This document shows, in pieces, positions 22,576 to 46,632 of a stretch of 64,000 nt of DNA. This stretch comes from Syntrophomonas sp. (GTDB lineage: Bacteria > Bacillota > Syntrophomonadia > Syntrophomonadales > Syntrophomonadaceae): positions 1-64,000 of the forward strand of contig JAENYG010000003.1 in assembly GCA_016841875.1 (NCBI GenBank), given 5' to 3'. Positions within the stretch are counted from its first letter, which is position 1, and each line of letters begins with the position of its first letter. The notes under the pieces were generated by a model that had not been told where the DNA came from, made no database searches, and saw nothing but the letters and a program-made list of their open reading frames with translations. A program made the position numbers and the translations under genes.

Positions 22576-24270
22576 TTAGACCTCAGTTGCATTTTTCCCT
22601 GCCAGCCAGCCGAAAGTGAGAGCACGTCCGTGACTGTTGCCTGGGAGTATGTTGGGATAGTCATTAGCATAGTAGCATCCGGAAACATTGCCCACCGCAT
22701 ATAGTCCAGGAATGGCTTTCAATTCAGTATCCAGGACCTGAAGTTTATCATTGACCTTCAGGCCACCCAGTGTGACCAGCAGGGTTGATCCGGTTTGAAC
22801 TGCATAGAATGGTGCTTTTTCTATGGTGGTCAAACATTCGGGACGTTTACCAAAATCAAGATCCTTGCCCTGTTTTGCCAGTTCGTTGTACCTGGCTACA
22901 TTTGCTTGGAATGTCTCAACCGGCACTTCCATTTTCTCAGCCAATCCCTCAATAGTATCAGCACTTTTTATAGTTTCATCTGCTATCAAACCCTGGATTT
23001 CCTCCTCGCTGTGTAAGGCTGCTGGAGGTATCATCCTTTTGCATGCTATCTGTTCAAATATGGGTGCTTCCTCCGGCCACTTGGCATCAAATACTACCCA
23101 TTTCAAATGATCGGGCTGCTGGCACACAGCATTACAATTGTAACCATAGGGCAGGTCTTCATTGGAAAAACGTTCCCCATTAAGATTCACATACAACCAG
23201 GGCTGACGGGTGAGGGGAACAGGTTTGCCCCCCGGGCGGCCTATTACACCCTGGTCAAAGTACATAGGAGCATGAGGCAGTTCATCCATCGCTCCACCGA
23301 TCCACAGACCCATTTTATGGCCATCCCCGGTATTGACCGTACCAGGATAGGCTATATCATATATATATTCTGATGAAGGTATGTATTTTTTTAGCATCTC
23401 AGGATTATTTCCATAATCGCCAGTAGCCAGAATAACTCCTTTGCCGGCGTTGAACTTAATATAAGATCCGTCCTCAGCTTTAGCAATTACACCGCTTACT
23501 TTGCCCTGATCGTCTCTAACCAGCTGCTCGGCCGGCGTTTTCCATTGGATATCGACGCCATATTTCTGGGCATTATTCTCCAGCACCCATTTCATAGCCG
23601 CTTGTTTAGGGGAGGTGCCGGTGGGGGCAGAAGCCATGGCTTCGTCAGTGGCATTGAAAGCAAAGGCCATGGTTGAAAAATGATTCCAGGTTGCACCATG
23701 TATAGTCTGTTCTGCAAGGGGAACTGGGTTAGCCTTAATTCCGACCGACTCTGCTTTTTCTACCAGCCAGTCTACAGCAGCCCCGCTGTAGTCAGCCCAG
23801 AGTGAAACCACCCTTTGGTCAGCCTTATATCCCCCAAATCTCATTATTTCTCTTACCGCAGCGTCCCGGTCAACTTCATTACCGATGGATTTTTGCAGCT
23901 TACTGCCAATGGCGCCATAATCTATTCCCCGCAGGGCCGGGACGGTTCCCTTTTCCAGCAAGATTACCTTGGCTCCTGCCTCAGCAGCTGATATAGCGGA
24001 GCAGAAGCCAGACAACCCACCCCCGACTACTACTACATCAGCAGTAACGGTAGATTTAATTTCACTGTCTGGGATCGGTTCTGGTGGGGTTTCAAAACTT
24101 ACATTCTCAGTGGTCTCATTCTCAGTTTCTGTCTCTGTCTTGGGGGCACAACCTGGCAGCATAGCAGCGGAAGCGACTCCAACTGTACCAATAGCTGCAC
24201 CTTTAATAAACTGTCTCCTGGAGATTCCCTGTTCTGATACTTCTTGGATACTCTTATTCTCCTCACTCAT
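22576..24270 (-). CDS. Tat-exported FAD-dependent oxidoreductase (fumarate reductase flavoprotein family)
   Basis: A 564-residue secreted flavoprotein. The N-terminus has a Tat signal (SRRQFIKGAAIG) followed by a lipobox (MLPGC), so it is probably folded inside, exported and lipid-anchored. After a Thr/Glu-rich linker, residues about 78 on form an FAD_binding_2 domain: ADVVVVGGGLSGFCSAISAAEAGAKVILLEK, GVILATGDYG, and the C-terminal GLYAVGNVSG and LPGNSHGRALTFGWLAG. It belongs with fumarate/urocanate/acrylate-type reductases but has no FMN-binding or cytochrome domain of its own. The electron donor and acceptor are unknown. RBS AGGAGGTCT. A long dyad lies at 24362. Confidence 0.9.
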   Translation of the reverse strand: MSEENKSIQEVSEQGISRRQFIKGAAIGTVGVASAAMLPGCAPKTETETENETTENVSFETPPEPIPDSEIKSTVTADVVVVGGGLSGFCSAISAAEAGAKVILLEKGTVPALRGIDYGAIGSKLQKSIGNEVDRDAAVREIMRFGGYKADQRVVSLWADYSGAAVDWLVEKAESVGIKANPVPLAEQTIHGATWNHFSTMAFAFNATDEAMASAPTGTSPKQAAMKWVLENNAQKYGVDIQWKTPAEQLVRDDQGKVSGVIAKAEDGSYIKFNAGKGVILATGDYGNNPEMLKKYIPSSEYIYDIAYPGTVNTGDGHKMGLWIGGAMDELPHAPMYFDQGVIGRPGGKPVPLTRQPWLYVNLNGERFSNEDLPYGYNCNAVCQQPDHLKWVVFDAKWPEEAPIFEQIACKRMIPPAALHSEEEIQGLIADETIKSADTIEGLAEKMEVPVETFQANVARYNELAKQGKDLDFGKRPECLTTIEKAPFYAVQTGSTLLVTLGGLKVNDKLQVLDTELKAIPGLYAVGNVSGCYYANDYPNILPGNSHGRALTFGWLAGKNATEV

Positions 24271-40201: not shown

Positions 40202-41260
40202 CTACCTCCCCAACTTTATATAATATACCAATGCACTGAGCAGAATAATTACCAGATATGCGATCATGAAAGTTATCACCATGGAGCCCCAAAAGCCAGC
40301 TATACTCTCAGCCCCCATTGATGCATTGCCCACGGCAATTATAGCTGCTAGAACAATCTGTGCTATGTTGGTAGCATTGCCGGACATAAGCATCTGACCG
40401 TTGTTTTCCAGGGGGTTGTTTTGAAAACATTTCACTGCCAGCATAAAAAATAACCCCATCATAAGAATTAACATGAAGGTTTCCAGTGGGTAATTGGGGC
40501 AGTATTTAACGACTGCTGCTGCATTTTGCATATATTCACTATCCCTGCTTATGTAAGCTGGTATAGTTAGATAATGGATTATCATATTCACTTTCGATAT
40601 GAAAGCCGGGGAAAAATTAAAGATTTGGATGGTGTTGTAGTTTATAATCATGACCCCAAGCATTGATGGCAAACCTGTGAACAGCATCGCCAGACAGACA
40701 GCTGATAGCAGATGTCCGGTAAAAGAAGCGATCATAAGGCCCAGGCTAAAAAGGGCGAGAAAAGCTGCTGTAGTGAGCAAGGCCCACTTAAAAACTAGTC
40801 CCGTACTGTAACTAACTGGTAGCAGCAGCCCGGCTACAATCATAAAAAGGGCGTTGACTACTATGATTCCCGTTATAGCTGCGCTCCCGGTCAGGAATTT
40901 GGCAGTGATAATCTCTGTTCTGCTTACTGGTGTGCTGACCAGATAGTTCAGGCTCCCTGACCTTTCCTGAACCAAAATGATAACCCCCAGTAAGATAACA
41001 ATATACATTCCCACCTGTTCCAAGGTATTATGATATGAAGCGGAAAATAGTCCACTTATGTTGCCCAGTGCATGAGCTACAGTGTATCTCCCTGCATCTG
41101 CCCCAAGCAGATCCTTAATGCCGTATCCAAGCGGTTTAATAAGAGGATCATAACTCATTATTAGGAACGCGGCTAAGAAATACATCCGATTCTGCTGCCA
41201 TTCTTTCCACAACAGGCCCTTATTTACCGGCAGAATAACATTTTTAAATGGCGTAGTCAT
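40202..41260 (-). CDS. ABC-2 type permease
   Basis: A 352-residue membrane protein with about seven hydrophobic segments and the ABC-2 pattern LVQERSGSLNYLVSTPVSRTEIITAKFLTGSAAI near residues 95-130. It forms the channel for the ATPase encoded just upstream, overlapping it by 17 bases. Third gene of the GntR-ABC operon. Substrate unknown; family members export peptides, drugs or lipids. Confidence 0.9.
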   Translation of the reverse strand: MTTPFKNVILPVNKGLLWKEWQQNRMYFLAAFLIMSYDPLIKPLGYGIKDLLGADAGRYTVAHALGNISGLFSASYHNTLEQVGMYIVILLGVIILVQERSGSLNYLVSTPVSRTEIITAKFLTGSAAITGIIVVNALFMIVAGLLLPVSYSTGLVFKWALLTTAAFLALFSLGLMIASFTGHLLSAVCLAMLFTGLPSMLGVMIINYNTIQIFNFSPAFISKVNMIIHYLTIPAYISRDSEYMQNAAAVVKYCPNYPLETFMLILMMGLFFMLAVKCFQNNPLENNGQMLMSGNATNIAQIVLAAIIAVGNASMGAESIAGFWGSMVITFMIAYLVIILLSALVYYIKLGR

Positions 41261-42161
41261 AACTGTAACCCTCCTTTTTCATATAAGTGATAAAAACATC
41301 TTCCAGGCTGAGGTTTACAGGTTCAATAATAGTGGGGTCAAGATCACCAAGGGCCTCTCTGAAAGCTTGTTGGTCACCGCTGGCAGTAAAGGTATAGATT
41401 TTACCCTGTTTGCCGACTTCGATTAAGCCGGGCAGGGAATTAATCACTTTTTCGGCCAGATTATCTGAGGCAAAAACCACCTGCGATTTGTGTATAGAGT
41501 TTTTCAACTCATCAATAGAACAAGTTAATAGTAATTTGCCCTGGTTTATTACTGCAATATGGTCTGCCGTCTGCTCCAGATCATTTAGGTTATGTGAAGA
41601 ATAAAGGACGGTTGTTCTTCCCTCGGCTGCCTCATCTATCATGGCTTTCAAGAAGGCGCGCCGTGCTACCGGGTCCAACCCTGCGGTAGGTTCATCCAGT
41701 ATCAAAACCCGGGGTCTGATTGATAAAGCCAGGACCAGTGCTGCTCTAACTTTCATGCCCCTGGATAAGGTTCTTACTCTTTTACGGGTAGGGATCTTGA
41801 AATAATTACACAAATTCCGGCATTTACTTTCATCCCAGTTTTTATAAAGTTTTTGGGCCAGGATAAACATTTCTTCAACTTTGAACATAGGGTACATGTT
41901 AGGGAAATCTGGTACATATCCCACCTGCTGCCTGATATCCGGGCCTGATTGTAGGATACTTTTACCCATGATGCAGGCATCGCCTCGATCTGGAAGCAGA
42001 ATTCCCATTAAGGTCTGCAAGAGGGTAGATTTGCCTGCCCCGTTGGGTCCAATGAGGCCAAATATAGTTCCCTGAGGTATTGACAGGGACAGTTCGTCAA
42101 TAGCGATAATTCCATCATAGGATTTTGAAAGTTTACATATGTCGATTGCCGGTAATTCCAT
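41244..42161 (-). CDS. ABC exporter ATP-binding protein (BcrA/YtrB type)
   Basis: A 305-residue ATPase: Walker A GPNGAGKST, signature LSRGMKVRAAL, Walker B VLILDEPTAGLD. I start it at ATG 42161, two bases after the gntR stop and behind GGAGGG; the frame also opens further upstream at 42191, inside gntR. The C-terminal 80 residues (VINSLPGLIEVGKQGKIYTF) are the usual tail of the BcrA class. Confidence 0.93.
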   Translation of the reverse strand: MELPAIDICKLSKSYDGIIAIDELSLSIPQGTIFGLIGPNGAGKSTLLQTLMGILLPDRGDACIMGKSILQSGPDIRQQVGYVPDFPNMYPMFKVEEMFILAQKLYKNWDESKCRNLCNYFKIPTRKRVRTLSRGMKVRAALVLALSIRPRVLILDEPTAGLDPVARRAFLKAMIDEAAEGRTTVLYSSHNLNDLEQTADHIAVINQGKLLLTCSIDELKNSIHKSQVVFASDNLAEKVINSLPGLIEVGKQGKIYTFTASGDQQAFREALGDLDPTIIEPVNLSLEDVFITYMKKEGYSYDYAI

Positions 42162-42163
42162 TC

Positions 42164-42559
42164 CTAAATATCCCTCCGCTCTCTTTCCCACTCCTCCATA
42201 GTCTCTAAAAACAGGGCTTTCAATTCATCTTCTCCGATTCCCAGATGAAATGCATCTACTCTGAGTCTATCCAATGAAGGTTTAAGCAGCTTCTTAATTG
42301 CTTCATTTCCCGGCGGTGCTTTACGCTCGGCTATAAAGGTACCGCGAGAGCGCATAGTTACTATAACCCCTTCCTGCTCCAGTTTTTGATATGCTTTGGC
42401 TATGGTGTTGGGATTTATGGTAAGTTCTGAAGCCATTTCTCTCACAGTAGGGATTTTGTCCCCGGGGTTATAAAGCCCTCGGGCCACTGTGTTTTTTATA
42501 GCATCAACTATCTGCTGATATACCGGGATGCTGGAACGAGGATCAATATTAAGATGCAA
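42164..42559 (-). CDS. GntR-family (YtrA-type) transcriptional regulator
   Basis: A 131-residue regulator with an N-terminal GntR winged helix (SIPVYQQIVDAIKNTVARGLYNPGDKIPTVREMASELTINPNTIAKAYQKLEQEG, seen in parts) and a short helical C-terminal dimerisation tail, as in YtrA. These repressors commonly control the ABC exporter in the same operon and release it under cell-wall antibiotic stress. A perfect inverted repeat at 42575 lies just upstream and is the probable operator. Confidence 0.93.
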   Translation of the reverse strand: MHLNIDPRSSIPVYQQIVDAIKNTVARGLYNPGDKIPTVREMASELTINPNTIAKAYQKLEQEGVIVTMRSRGTFIAERKAPPGNEAIKKLLKPSLDRLRVDAFHLGIGEDELKALFLETMEEWERERRDI

Positions 42560-42574
42560 ATCATCACCCTCATA

Positions 42575-42595
42575 TGTACTATTTGTAATAGTACA
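42575..42595 (-). promoter_or_regulatory. candidate GntR operator
   Basis: A perfect 9-base inverted repeat, TGTACTATT and AATAGTACA with centre TGT, lies 15 bases before the gntR start. YtrA-type repressors bind dyads built on AGTGTA/TACACT-like arms, so this fits autoregulation. Confidence 0.65.
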
Positions 42596-42737: not shown

Positions 42738-42786
42738 TTGACATGTATGGATTACATGTGTAAGCTATAGGTATTACATTTGTAAT
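42738..42786 (+). promoter_or_regulatory. promoter with two BlaI/MecI-type operators
   Basis: TTGACA at 42738-42743 is a perfect -35 box. Two TACAnnTGTA dyads lie at 42753-42762 (inside ATTACATGTGTAA) and 42775-42784 (inside ATTACATTTGTAAT). TACAnnTGTA is the known recognition half-site pair of BlaI/MecI repressors. The second copy lies 20 bases before the start of the repressor gene, so the repressor controls itself and the sensor. Confidence 0.8.
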
Positions 42787-43191: not shown

Positions 43192-44787
43192 GTGCAGGGA
43201 TTTTACCCTATCTTGGACTGGATAGTAATATCTTCGCTAATGGGAAGCATCTTGATTTTTTTAATTCTTTTTGCCAAATTGGTGTTCAATAATAAGGTGA
43301 GCGCCAATTGGCACTATTATATTTGGTTCCTGCTTCTCCTGAGATTGATCGTTCCTTTTACTCCCGAAAGTCCGATAAGTATATATAACCTGCTTATTCA
43401 TGGTACTGAACAGATGACCTTTAGCCATTACACTCCTGCCTTCTCGGAGCCGGGCAGTCCATTAATGGAAGCTGGCATCTACGACGGTATTTCAACAGAT
43501 ATTAATGATAATCCAGAACAATTATACTCGGGACAGGTGCAGCCGAATGTTATTGATAGCCCGGGGCCAAACGATGGTAATAGTTTTAACTGGAAGGTGG
43601 TTTTGCTTCTGGTATGGCTGGCAGGAGCTGCACTGGCAGCGGGATATGCCATATATGTCAACTTCAAACTCTGGTCTCAAATTCGGCATGAACCCCAATT
43701 AGATAATGCATCAATTATTGAAATAGTACAAAACTGCAAGTCAGTTATGAATGTTTCTGCCAGTATCCCGATAGTGGTTACAAATAGAATTCATGCACCA
43801 GCCCTCTTCGGAACGATAAATCCAAAGCTGATCCTGCCGGAGAACATAATCAAAAACCTTAGTGATAAGCAAATTAAATACATATGTCTGCATGAATTAG
43901 CCCATTGGAAACGAAAAGATATTTGGCTTAACTGGATAACGGTAATATTGCAGATACTGCACTGGTTCAATCCAGTGATCTGGTATGGCTTTTATAGAAT
44001 GCATCAGGATTGTGAACTGGCATGTGACTCACTGGTCCTGTCATCAATAGAGCCTGAACAACGCAAAGAATATGGGCATACCATCATCCAGGTATTGCAA
44101 ATGAGGTTGATACCCCAATGGATTCCGGGAGCAGCTGGAATGCTGACTGGTAAATCCCATATTGAAAGGAGAATTACGATGATTGCAGATTATCAAAAAA
44201 AATCTCTTTTATTTACTATTGTAAGTGTTATCGTCTTGGCCGCTGTTGGGCTGCTTGGATGTACAAATGCCCAAAATATTGAGGAACCGTCATCAGGAGT
44301 TCAAAGCGATACTCAGACAAAAACAGAATCGGAAACTAATCAAATACTGGCAGGAGCTGTTGAATTGGAAGGCCCGGGAATAATCGTAACCCTTTCAGAT
44401 TCTGATGTTGGTAACGAAAAAGGTCCAAATTACTCTATAATTCATGATACAGATATCATTTTAATCCTTAACCATCTTAAAGATGCGGGAGCTGAAGCAA
44501 TATCTGTTAATGATCAACGTTTGATATCAACCAGCTCGATAGACTGTGCGGGTACTAATATCCTAATCAATCATAATGTGTGTACCAGTCCTTTCATTAT
44601 TAAGGTCATCGGTAATCCTGAAAAATTGGAAAATGATTTACTATCAAAAGGTGGTTATATAGAGATGTTGAGATATCTTGGCCCGGAAGCAGTTATAGAA
44701 AGAAGTGAAAACTTGTTAATTCCTAAATATGATGGAGAAATCAGCTTTGAATATGCCAAGCTGATTAGAGAACCAGAGCAGCTATAA
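43192..44787 (+). CDS. BlaR1-type M56 metalloprotease fused to an extracellular DUF881 domain
   Basis: A 531-residue fusion. Residues 1-320 are the M56 BlaR1/MecR1 protease with membrane segments at about 12-32, 43-55 and 135-158, the zinc motif HELAH at 234-238 and the third ligand E275 in QDCELACDS. A further membrane segment at about 340-357 leads outside. In place of the usual penicillin-binding sensor, residues 385-531 form a DUF881 domain: ELEGPGIIVTLSDSD, IHDTDIILILNHLKDAGAEAI, SVNDQRLISTSSIDCAGTNI and FIIKVIGNPEKLE. DUF881 proteins elsewhere are envelope proteins near cell-division genes. GTG start. Confidence 0.9.
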   Translation: MQGFYPILDWIVISSLMGSILIFLILFAKLVFNNKVSANWHYYIWFLLLLRLIVPFTPESPISIYNLLIHGTEQMTFSHYTPAFSEPGSPLMEAGIYDGISTDINDNPEQLYSGQVQPNVIDSPGPNDGNSFNWKVVLLLVWLAGAALAAGYAIYVNFKLWSQIRHEPQLDNASIIEIVQNCKSVMNVSASIPIVVTNRIHAPALFGTINPKLILPENIIKNLSDKQIKYICLHELAHWKRKDIWLNWITVILQILHWFNPVIWYGFYRMHQDCELACDSLVLSSIEPEQRKEYGHTIIQVLQMRLIPQWIPGAAGMLTGKSHIERRITMIADYQKKSLLFTIVSVIVLAAVGLLGCTNAQNIEEPSSGVQSDTQTKTESETNQILAGAVELEGPGIIVTLSDSDVGNEKGPNYSIIHDTDIILILNHLKDAGAEAISVNDQRLISTSSIDCAGTNILINHNVCTSPFIIKVIGNPEKLENDLLSKGGYIEMLRYLGPEAVIERSENLLIPKYDGEISFEYAKLIREPEQL

Positions 44788-44820: not shown

Positions 44821-45606
44821 ATGTTTAAAAAAACAATAATTGCCGGCCTTATAGCTACCATGGCCGTCACAGCTACCGGTTGCGGCAAACCTGGGGTAGA
44901 GCAGGAAAAGTTTGTGTTGACAGACAACCTGAAGGTGCAAAAAACACTGGAAGCGGATCTGAACGGGGACAATAGCAAGGAGAAGATTGTTTTTTACGAG
45001 AAAAGAGAACATGGCATACCAGCAGCCTGGACCGTAGTGGTGGACGGATACGAAATGGCGACGCTGGACAGTCAAGACAGCTGCTACACCCTGGCGGACT
45101 TCAAACTACAGGACGTCGATGGTCAAGATGGACCGGAAGTATTATTCTACCGCTACAACACCGGCAGTTCAGCTGGGCAGTCTCTAAATATCTTTAAACC
45201 CGGCCAGGATGGTTGGCGTGAAATATTCAATGTCTCCAATGATTTTAGTATGGGTGAAGAAAGGTATGAGATAAAGTACCTGGGTAACTATCAGGTAAGC
45301 TTCAAGGATCAGAAAACCGGCCTCGAACACATTATTGAACTGGAAAAAAGTGTTTATAAAGAAAACGAAGCAATGCTTGAGAGAATTTCCACCTGGGTAG
45401 ATCCCATCGCCGAATACCGGATCGATGATATTGACGGAAACGAGGTTAATGAAATCACCACCGTTCAGAGGGTTATTGGGATTGCCCACCCAGACAATAT
45501 CGCTATCCTCCAAAACGTTTACCAACTGCGCAGCGGGGTTTACCAGGCCGATAAAATAATACTTACCAACGCCGCCGGGCAGCTACTGGCTGAAAAAGAT
45601 CTATGA
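44821..45606 (+). CDS. lipoprotein with FG-GAP/VCBS-like calcium-type repeats
   Basis: A 261-residue lipoprotein with lipobox TATGC (Cys 21). Three similar segments, DLNGDNSKEKIVFY, DVDGQDGPEVLFY and DIDGNEVNEITTV, recall the D-x-D/N-G-D calcium loop of VCBS/FG-GAP beta-propellers. It lies 33 bases after the BlaR1-like gene and is probably in its operon, so it could be an effector of the same wall-stress response. No family name is certain. Good AAGGAG ahead of the ATG. Confidence 0.75.
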   Translation: MFKKTIIAGLIATMAVTATGCGKPGVEQEKFVLTDNLKVQKTLEADLNGDNSKEKIVFYEKREHGIPAAWTVVVDGYEMATLDSQDSCYTLADFKLQDVDGQDGPEVLFYRYNTGSSAGQSLNIFKPGQDGWREIFNVSNDFSMGEERYEIKYLGNYQVSFKDQKTGLEHIIELEKSVYKENEAMLERISTWVDPIAEYRIDDIDGNEVNEITTVQRVIGIAHPDNIAILQNVYQLRSGVYQADKIILTNAAGQLLAEKDL

Positions 45607-45639: not shown

Positions 45640-45696
45640 AAAGAACCCTCCCACACTATCTTTCATAGTGCAAGTCAAGAACCGTCCCCCTGTCTA
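45640..45696. repeat. REP-like element
   Basis: AAGAACCCTCCCACACTAT and ATAGTGCAAGTCAAGAACCGTCCCC sit together; CACTAT and ATAGTG can pair. It overlaps the stop of the M14 peptidase gene region and separates it from the lipoprotein gene. Confidence 0.6.
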
Positions 45697-46620
45697 CAGA
45701 TTTCTGGCTGCAATTTCCTTGATACAGTCAATAGTCCTGGAGCTGAAATTCAGATTATCGCAAAAGCTCTTATCATAGTTGATTTGATCTTCAGTTTTCT
45801 TTTCATACGCACCTTCACCGGAGAAAGGATCTGGAAATTCAACTAAAACAGCTTTGCCCTGGTCCAAGGCCCAACCGGAAAAGAATCCAGGATATATGGC
45901 CTCTTCAACTGTCTCATGGGATAGACCCATCCCCTCGCAGAATACTGCACAAAGCTCCGGGTCTCCGGCGGCAGAATTGACCCAGCCGTGGAAGTCAATG
46001 ATAATATCGGGGTTTTCACTAAGTACCAAATCCCTCAATGCTCGAGATTCTGGCGAAGTGAAGGGAGCCTCTCCGGTCTGGTTGCGCGGATTTTCCCTGA
46101 CCTTGAAGTGATAATCGAAATCCATGTTGATATCAATTCCCTGGGACAACTGGCATCTACCGGGGCCATTGCATGTCCATCCCTCATTAACCCCATCAGG
46201 ATTAGCGCAGGGAACCACCAGCAATTCATAATTGCCCAGATCACCAGGATACTTTTTGAAATATTCGATGACATCACTTGCAATATCCACCAATAGCCTT
46301 CCATCCTGATAAAAAGCGTCTTCAAAGCCATGAATAGCAAAAACACACAGAATTTTTCGTTGAATATCAGTATTGTTATTGCTGATCCTGCAGCAGGTGA
46401 GTGGCCTATTGTTTCCAGAATAACCATATTCCTGTTCCACGAAAGCCACAGCAGTTTCCTCCTTAACCGGCTCGGCAGTCGACTCTTTTTGCTCCGGGCT
46501 GAACTCGATCTTATCCGGTGTTAAGGAATGGTTATTATTCCCATACCAGGAACGGGCTGCAAACAGCCCCGTGCTAATGACAGCCAGCAGCACTAACGCC
46601 AGCAGGAGCTTTCTGTTCAT
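45694..46620 (-). CDS. M14-family zinc carboxypeptidase, membrane-anchored
   Basis: A 308-residue protein anchored by a signal segment at about 4-22. The M14 zinc site is H97-x-x-E100 in AIHGFED with H211 in DFHGW. VVPCANPDGVNEG and INMDFDYHF are typical, and the catalytic glutamate is E261 in AVLVEFPDP. The sequence resembles gamma-D-glutamyl-diamino-acid peptidases that act on peptidoglycan peptides. I start it at ATG 46620 with AAAGGA about 12 bases upstream; ATG 46632 is too close to that site. Confidence 0.88.
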   Translation of the reverse strand: MNRKLLLALVLLAVISTGLFAARSWYGNNNHSLTPDKIEFSPEQKESTAEPVKEETAVAFVEQEYGYSGNNRPLTCCRISNNNTDIQRKILCVFAIHGFEDAFYQDGRLLVDIASDVIEYFKKYPGDLGNYELLVVPCANPDGVNEGWTCNGPGRCQLSQGIDINMDFDYHFKVRENPRNQTGEAPFTSPESRALRDLVLSENPDIIIDFHGWVNSAAGDPELCAVFCEGMGLSHETVEEAIYPGFFSGWALDQGKAVLVEFPDPFSGEGAYEKKTEDQINYDKSFCDNLNFSSRTIDCIKEIAARNL

Positions 46621-46632
46621 AAAAACAATCAT

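Follow-up and report, generated by a model that had tools for sequence, protein, structure and literature searches.

What does a BlaR1-type receptor sense when a DUF881 domain stands where its penicillin-binding domain should be? The question is raised by a gene in the window, the 64,000-nt stretch of a Syntrophomonas sp. contig that we analyzed, which lies directly behind a blaI-type repressor gene and encodes a fusion of an M56 protease with DUF881 (Table 1). We consider, with moderate confidence, that the product belongs to the BlaR1 type of receptor and has DUF881 as its sensor; it would take a wall- or division-linked input and derepress its own operon.

Table 1. Coordinates of features in the blaI-fusion locus, in positions of the window.
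Feature	Position	Strand	Basis
Operon promoter: TTGACA 42738-42743, 17-bp spacer, TAAGCT 42761-42766	42738..42766	+	read from sequence
BlaI operator 1, ATTACATGTGTAAG, spacer and over -10	42751..42764	.	TACANNTGTA at 42753-42762
BlaI operator 2, ATTACATTTGTAAT, just downstream of -10	42773..42786	.	TACANNTGTA at 42775-42784
blaI-type repressor, 123 aa	42806..43177	+	PF03965 (Penicillinase_R) 127 bits
M56 protease and membrane part, residues 1-331	43192..44184	+	PF05569 240 bits; fold vs BlaR1 8ext
HELAH zinc motif (residues 234-238; H234, E235, H238)	43891..43905	+	BlaR1 alignment
Third zinc ligand E275	44014-44016	+	aligned to BlaR1 E242
Last transmembrane helix, residues 339-357, ends LLGC	44206..44262	+	AlphaFold
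DUF881 domain, residues 381-523, predicted extracytoplasmic	44332..44760	+	PF05949; sequence and fold match to 3gmg
Lipoprotein-like gene, 261 aa, lipobox-like TATGCGK	44821..45606	+	33-nt gap, AAAGGAG site; no Pfam match

The fusion frame (43192-44784, plus strand) opens with GTG, encodes 531 residues, and has an AAAGGAG ribosome-binding site that overlaps the end of blaI. Pfam assigned residues 14-331 to Peptidase_M56 (PF05569, 239.8 bits, cut-off 31) and residues 381-523 to DUF881 (PF05949, 142.6 bits, E 1e-41, cut-off 25), the latter spanning profile positions 3-146 of 146; beyond these, Pfam returned just a weak M48 match overlapping the protease. The structure predicted with AlphaFold (mean pLDDT 80.5, from a 35-row alignment) contains membrane helices, the protease fold, helix 339-357 between the domains, and a separate alpha/beta domain. 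The model matched both S. aureus BlaR1 (8ext; Z 20.7, rmsd 3.5, 247 residues aligned with VIA-align) and the solved DUF881 protein Rv1825 (3gmg; Z 18.0, rmsd 2.3, 133 residues). Folded alone, the DUF881 domain gave Z 18.7 and rmsd 2.1 over 134 aligned residues of 3gmg, which it also matches by sequence (E 1e-8), and no closer fold than 3gmg was seen, the next being general ferredoxin-like folds at Z ~7, within background. The domain order put forward in the sequence-only reading, that is, an M56 protease with HELAH followed by the last membrane helix and then DUF881 in full, thus held up in both Pfam and the predicted structure, with the search of the C-terminal part returning a full-length DUF881 match.

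In the alignment to BlaR1 (8exs/8exp), residues H234, E235, H238, and E275 of the fusion correspond to H201, E202, H205, and E242, at an offset that stays constant at 33 up to residue 295; D243, D279, and Y294 correspond to D210, D246, and Y261, and R326-R327 to R293-R294. The roles of these BlaR1 residues, as well as the cleavage sites, have been described together with the BlaR1 structure (PMC9834060). Judged by its residues, the zinc site is intact and the protease appears to be active. A lipobox-like LLGCTN (44248-44265) closes the last membrane helix, and the Cys at the LLGC position is present in every Syntrophomonadaceae fusion and absent from that of SKW158, a Clostridia metagenome-assembled genome (MAG) of another order; the DUF881 head might be released or lipid-anchored at this Cys.

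The repressor has counterparts for the cleavage residues of its staphylococcal relatives. Asn100-Phe101 of BlaI aligns with Asn101-Phe102 in the MecI structures (1sd6/1okr), and the cleavage site of S. aureus BlaI is Asn101-Phe102 (PMC9834060). The pair is Asn-Phe in the window's genome, G002, G031, and G022, Ser-Phe in G038 and G045, and Asn-Met in SKW158. The operon promoter is absent from the listing of a generic promoter scan; TTGACA and operator 1 running into the -10 are kept at the fusion loci of G002, G038, G031, and SKW158 as well as at the decayed locus of G022, and the G045 locus follows the same plan, but with TGGACA.

Searching for operators by pattern only, we found a tandem TACANNTGTA pair (gap 6-30) once in the 3.97-Mb genome, at the blaI promoter, against zero for the reversed control pattern. 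Exactly one such pair occurs in each of G002, G038, G045, G031, and G022, at the blaI-fusion locus, and SKW158 has two, the second preceding a further blaI-M56 pair at the end of a contig. Single TACANNTGTA sites (4 in the genome, 6 for the control pattern) provide no evidence because they are not commoner than the control, and one operator-like site at 23132, within a coding frame, was rejected as chance. The genome's second BlaI-like match (C84:98354, 31 bits) was also set aside, its frame reading, by eye, like a MarR regulator. Given that the tandem pair is found just at its own promoter, the repressor's visible target is its own operon, possibly its sole one, though targets with single or degenerate operators may exist. 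The BlaI circuit with its operators, proposed earlier from the letters of the window, is therefore borne out by the Penicillinase_R match and the two tandem sites.

Besides the window's genome, a full fusion is carried by G002 (Syntrophomonas sp. BM5_bin.8, fusion 89% identical to that of the window), G045 (STF2_183), G038 (S. wolfei subsp. methylbutyratica JCM 14075, 51% identical), G031 (a Syntrophomonadaceae MAG, in which the 717-residue protein is M56-Amidase_3-DUF881), and SKW158 (39% identical). The unit of operators, blaI, and fusion is present in four Syntrophomonadaceae relatives and one distant Clostridia MAG. These amount to at least 5 of the 63 genomes of the window's order and at least 1 of the 58 genomes of SKW158's order, both counts being lower bounds; no further fusion appeared among 398 genomes sampled evenly across the phylum, with up to three candidates scored per genome, and named genomes were scanned with two M56 peptide patterns only. 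No plasmid record covers 80% of the fusion protein, and viral contigs yielded one M56 protein with a different C-terminal part. The fusion is not an assembly accident, as it occurs in independent assemblies, including that of the named strain JCM 14075. Nor is it a common class of BlaR1, the finding that would have refuted the sequence-only reading: the counts are low, and our literature search returned no paper naming DUF881 together with M56.

Nei-Gojobori estimates of dN/dS between the window and G002 were 0.35 for M56, 0.47 for DUF881, and 0.11 for blaI; against S. wolfei methylbutyratica they were 0.24 for M56 and 0.29 for DUF881, with dS near saturation. At the level of codon comparison, both fusion domains are under purifying selection. 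The exception is the loop 62-133 (72 codons), with dN/dS of about 0.93 on 13 changes; this loop matches the sensor-contacting extracellular loop of BlaR1, and, with this loop unconserved, the signal may take a route that differs in detail from that of BlaR1. Several relatives have lost or broken the locus, indicating that it is dispensable there. In G025, which belongs to the genus group of S. wolfei methylbutyratica, the unit is gone save for a 150-bp fusion relic, directly adjoined by a flank that shares 95% identity with G038 over 707 bases, and the G022 copy carries a frame break in the M56 part. Fragments of additional or former fusion-gene copies lie beside the intact one in G002, G045, and G038, and the relic in G025 is a further such remnant (L036:14664-15075, L039:3754-4062, L037:5679-5888, L181:2619-2771). 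The operator-blaI-fusion locus is a maintained but dispensable unit.

The fusions do not share one history. In an M56 tree built by a quick method from 88 rows, the proteins of the window, G002, G038, and G045 cluster together (support 99), close to SKW158 and M56-NAGPA proteins (94 for the wider group), and G031 falls among the M56-Amidase_3 proteins of G012, G053, and Desulfotruncus arcticus (98). A single origin of all fusions was rejected on this placement of G031. In the DUF881 tree, all fusion heads, together with a stand-alone DUF881 of SKW158, fall outside a group of 16 ordinary stand-alone DUF881 proteins, a split with only moderate support (83/92, drawn open, long branches). The disagreement between the two trees indicates that at least two M56 backbones gained a DUF881 head, or that the head was passed from one to another; the SKW158 fusion may mark a third such event. 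Stand-alone DUF881 proteins have a coiled-coil-like stretch behind their membrane helix, comparable to the one that precedes DUF881 in the SKW158 fusion, and we infer that the ancestral DUF881 membrane helix was replaced by the last helix of M56. In SKW158, the stand-alone DUF881 gene (L044:7680-8378) begins ~45 bases downstream of the fusion gene. Head and likely output in SKW158 are thus of one family, in the way that the BlaR1 sensor resembles the lactamase under its control.

Other M56 proteins carry other heads. In Syntrophomonadaceae and Desulfotruncus, some M56 receptors have Amidase_3 (N-acetylmuramoyl-L-alanine amidase) as their head (L083:5433-7583, L097:5971-7680, L085:5046-6740, L102:6016-7707). 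The motif TEI(A/S) of the L097 and L083 heads has lost its Glu in L102 and L085, so the latter two heads may bind rather than cut peptidoglycan. Desulfosporosinus metallidurans encodes an M56 protein with a NAGPA (phosphodiester glycosidase) head (L046:2685-4550, Pfam), which the L045:5902-7800 protein resembles by eye. M56 is represented by just one gene in the window's genome, against about a dozen M56 matches in its close relative G002.

The gene behind the fusion starts 33 bases past its stop codon with its own ribosome-binding site, and likely belongs to the blaI-fusion operon in this genome. It has matches in just three genomes of the order, none of them among the other fusion genomes, so that the claim that a lipoprotein gene completes the operon stands for this genome and fails for the conserved unit. 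A search for an effector gene kept downstream of the fusion found none: the gene at that place varies between genomes, so that the operon itself is the one conserved output in view. No resistance gene was seen among the genes adjoining the operon. Converging on the operon is a gene for an M14 carboxypeptidase (45694-46632, minus strand), weakly like the murein peptide amidase MpaA; relatives lie near the fusion in G002, as a relic, and in G038, as a truncated copy, and a relative is present in 4 of the 5 fusion genomes of the order versus 4 of 58 others (counts uncorrected for kinship). On the upstream side, a palindrome at 42570-42592, GTACTATTTGTAATAGTAC, likely a GntR operator, precedes the divergent GntR-ABC transporter genes (40202-42559); the promoter scan placed a good sigma-70-like promoter on the minus strand at 42624-42596.

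The candidate signal comes from what is known of DUF881. The fusion gene is not in the ftsQ-ftsA-ftsZ cluster, where the genome's other DUF881 gene takes that place, between ftsQ and DUF1290-ftsA-ftsZ, in a run starting with mur genes. We take the YlxW-type proteins of Bacillota to be DUF881 members, an assignment supported by the position of this gene and by a B. subtilis control match. In C. difficile, YlxW and YlxX localise to midcell (PMC12548448). The link between DUF881 and division drawn in the sequence-only reading is thus upheld by the second DUF881 gene and by this localization, and a literature search found no ligand or activity of any DUF881 protein.

In the mechanism we favor, the M56 part would be an integral-membrane zinc protease facing the cytoplasm, and DUF881, placed outside behind the last helix, would act as the sensor, by analogy with BlaR1. 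Without a signal, BlaI dimers on the two operators over the -10 region would repress blaI and the fusion gene, along with the lipoprotein-like gene where present. Upon a signal, DUF881 would bind or lose a wall- or division-linked partner, such as septal peptidoglycan, a lipid-linked precursor, or a divisome protein, and the last helix would pass this shift to the protease, which would cut BlaI at Asn100-Phe101 and derepress the operon. Cleavage of BlaI by the fusion is a candidate activity, predicted from the cleavage residues that are kept intact. We propose a wall- or division-linked input because of the division-cluster DUF881 gene, the midcell position of YlxW/YlxX, and the wall-amidase heads found at the same position of M56 proteins; penicillin is probably not what this receptor detects, but the condition of the cell wall or of the division site.

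The strongest competitor, which we regard as unlikely while granting it real weight, makes DUF881 an address or pairing module that recruits the protease to the site of division or aids its dimerization; the signal would then come in by another way, such as the membrane part or a cytoplasmic peptidoglycan fragment that loosens BlaI. The midcell localization of YlxW/YlxX (PMC12548448) would suit an address, as would the coiled-coil-like stretch kept in the SKW158 fusion a pairing role, and the peptidoglycan dipeptide gamma-D-Glu-mDAP can release BlaI/MecI (PMC3305447); such direct release could act here as well. However, the domain at the same position of BlaR1 is the sensor (PMC9834060), and the presence there of unrelated, partly wall-related heads, Amidase_3 and NAGPA, fits exchangeable sensors better.

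Decay and drug resistance provide two further explanations. The relic at the matching place in G025, the frame break in G022, and the broken further copies near the G002, G038, and G045 loci would fit an accessory locus that is being lost and does little at present, but the retention of intact frames, the zinc site, and the tandem operators by six genomes, along with dN/dS well below 1 in both domains, makes this improbable. Least probable of all, by a small step, is a switch for resistance to beta-lactams or other wall antibiotics, with DUF881 responding to drug damage: the BlaI/M56 core is that of the bla and mec systems, but the fusion lacks a penicillin-binding domain match, scores 223 with the NCBIfam BlaR1 model against a cut-off of 400 (best stretch, profile 103-323 of 585), and adjoins no visible resistance gene.

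Returning to the favored receptor with a DUF881 sensor, a bolder version would have it report the state of the divisome or septal peptidoglycan straight to the repressor, with different M56 backbones having gained the division-type domain on two or more occasions; we offer this version tentatively, as possible and somewhat short of an even prospect. If it is true, whatever the head binds would supply the YlxW/YlxX/DUF881 family with its missing ligand. A natural protease-switch fusion with a simple promoter output turns the question of the DUF881 ligand or activity into a reporter assay. More generally, the BlaR1 chassis in Clostridia takes various wall-related heads, namely, DUF881, Amidase_3, or both together, and, as heads vary, annotating an M56 gene as a beta-lactam sensor from nothing but its protease domain would be wrong in these cases.

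Among known systems, the closest are BlaR1/MecR1-BlaI/MecI (bla, mec; MEROPS M56), which likewise pair a repressor gene with a membrane zinc protease gene and share with the fusion locus the TACANNTGTA-type operators, the zinc and structural residues, and the position of the sensor behind the last helix. The fusion is an M56 gluzincin with HExxH and a distant Glu (240 bits, Z 21), and it has a cognate repressor and operators, but it carries DUF881 in place of the penicillin-binding domain, for which Pfam gave no match in the protein, DUF881 alone lying behind the last helix. Unlike bla and mec, the locus has no lactamase or PBP2a gene: the operon holds the lipoprotein-like gene, and the genome has no second tandem pair from which another target might be read. 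By these features, the system would operate in the manner of BlaR1-BlaI without being, on the present tests, a beta-lactam receptor, given the missing penicillin-binding domain and resistance gene and the score below the BlaR1 cut-off. With the DUF881 proteins of the YlxW/YlxX type (ftsQ-ylxW-ylxX-ftsA-ftsZ) and Rv1825 (3gmg), the fusion shares the complete domain, its fold, and an outward position behind a membrane helix, predicted in the case of the fusion; it differs in being joined to a protease, in residing in a BlaI operon, and in standing apart from the division-cluster DUF881s in the tree (83/92). The M56-Amidase_3 and M56-NAGPA proteins have the same protease and an exchangeable outer domain, but a different head; the M56-Amidase_3 form that was checked, in G031, has a BlaI-type gene upstream, as in the window, and bridges both kinds by combining Amidase_3 and DUF881 in one protein.
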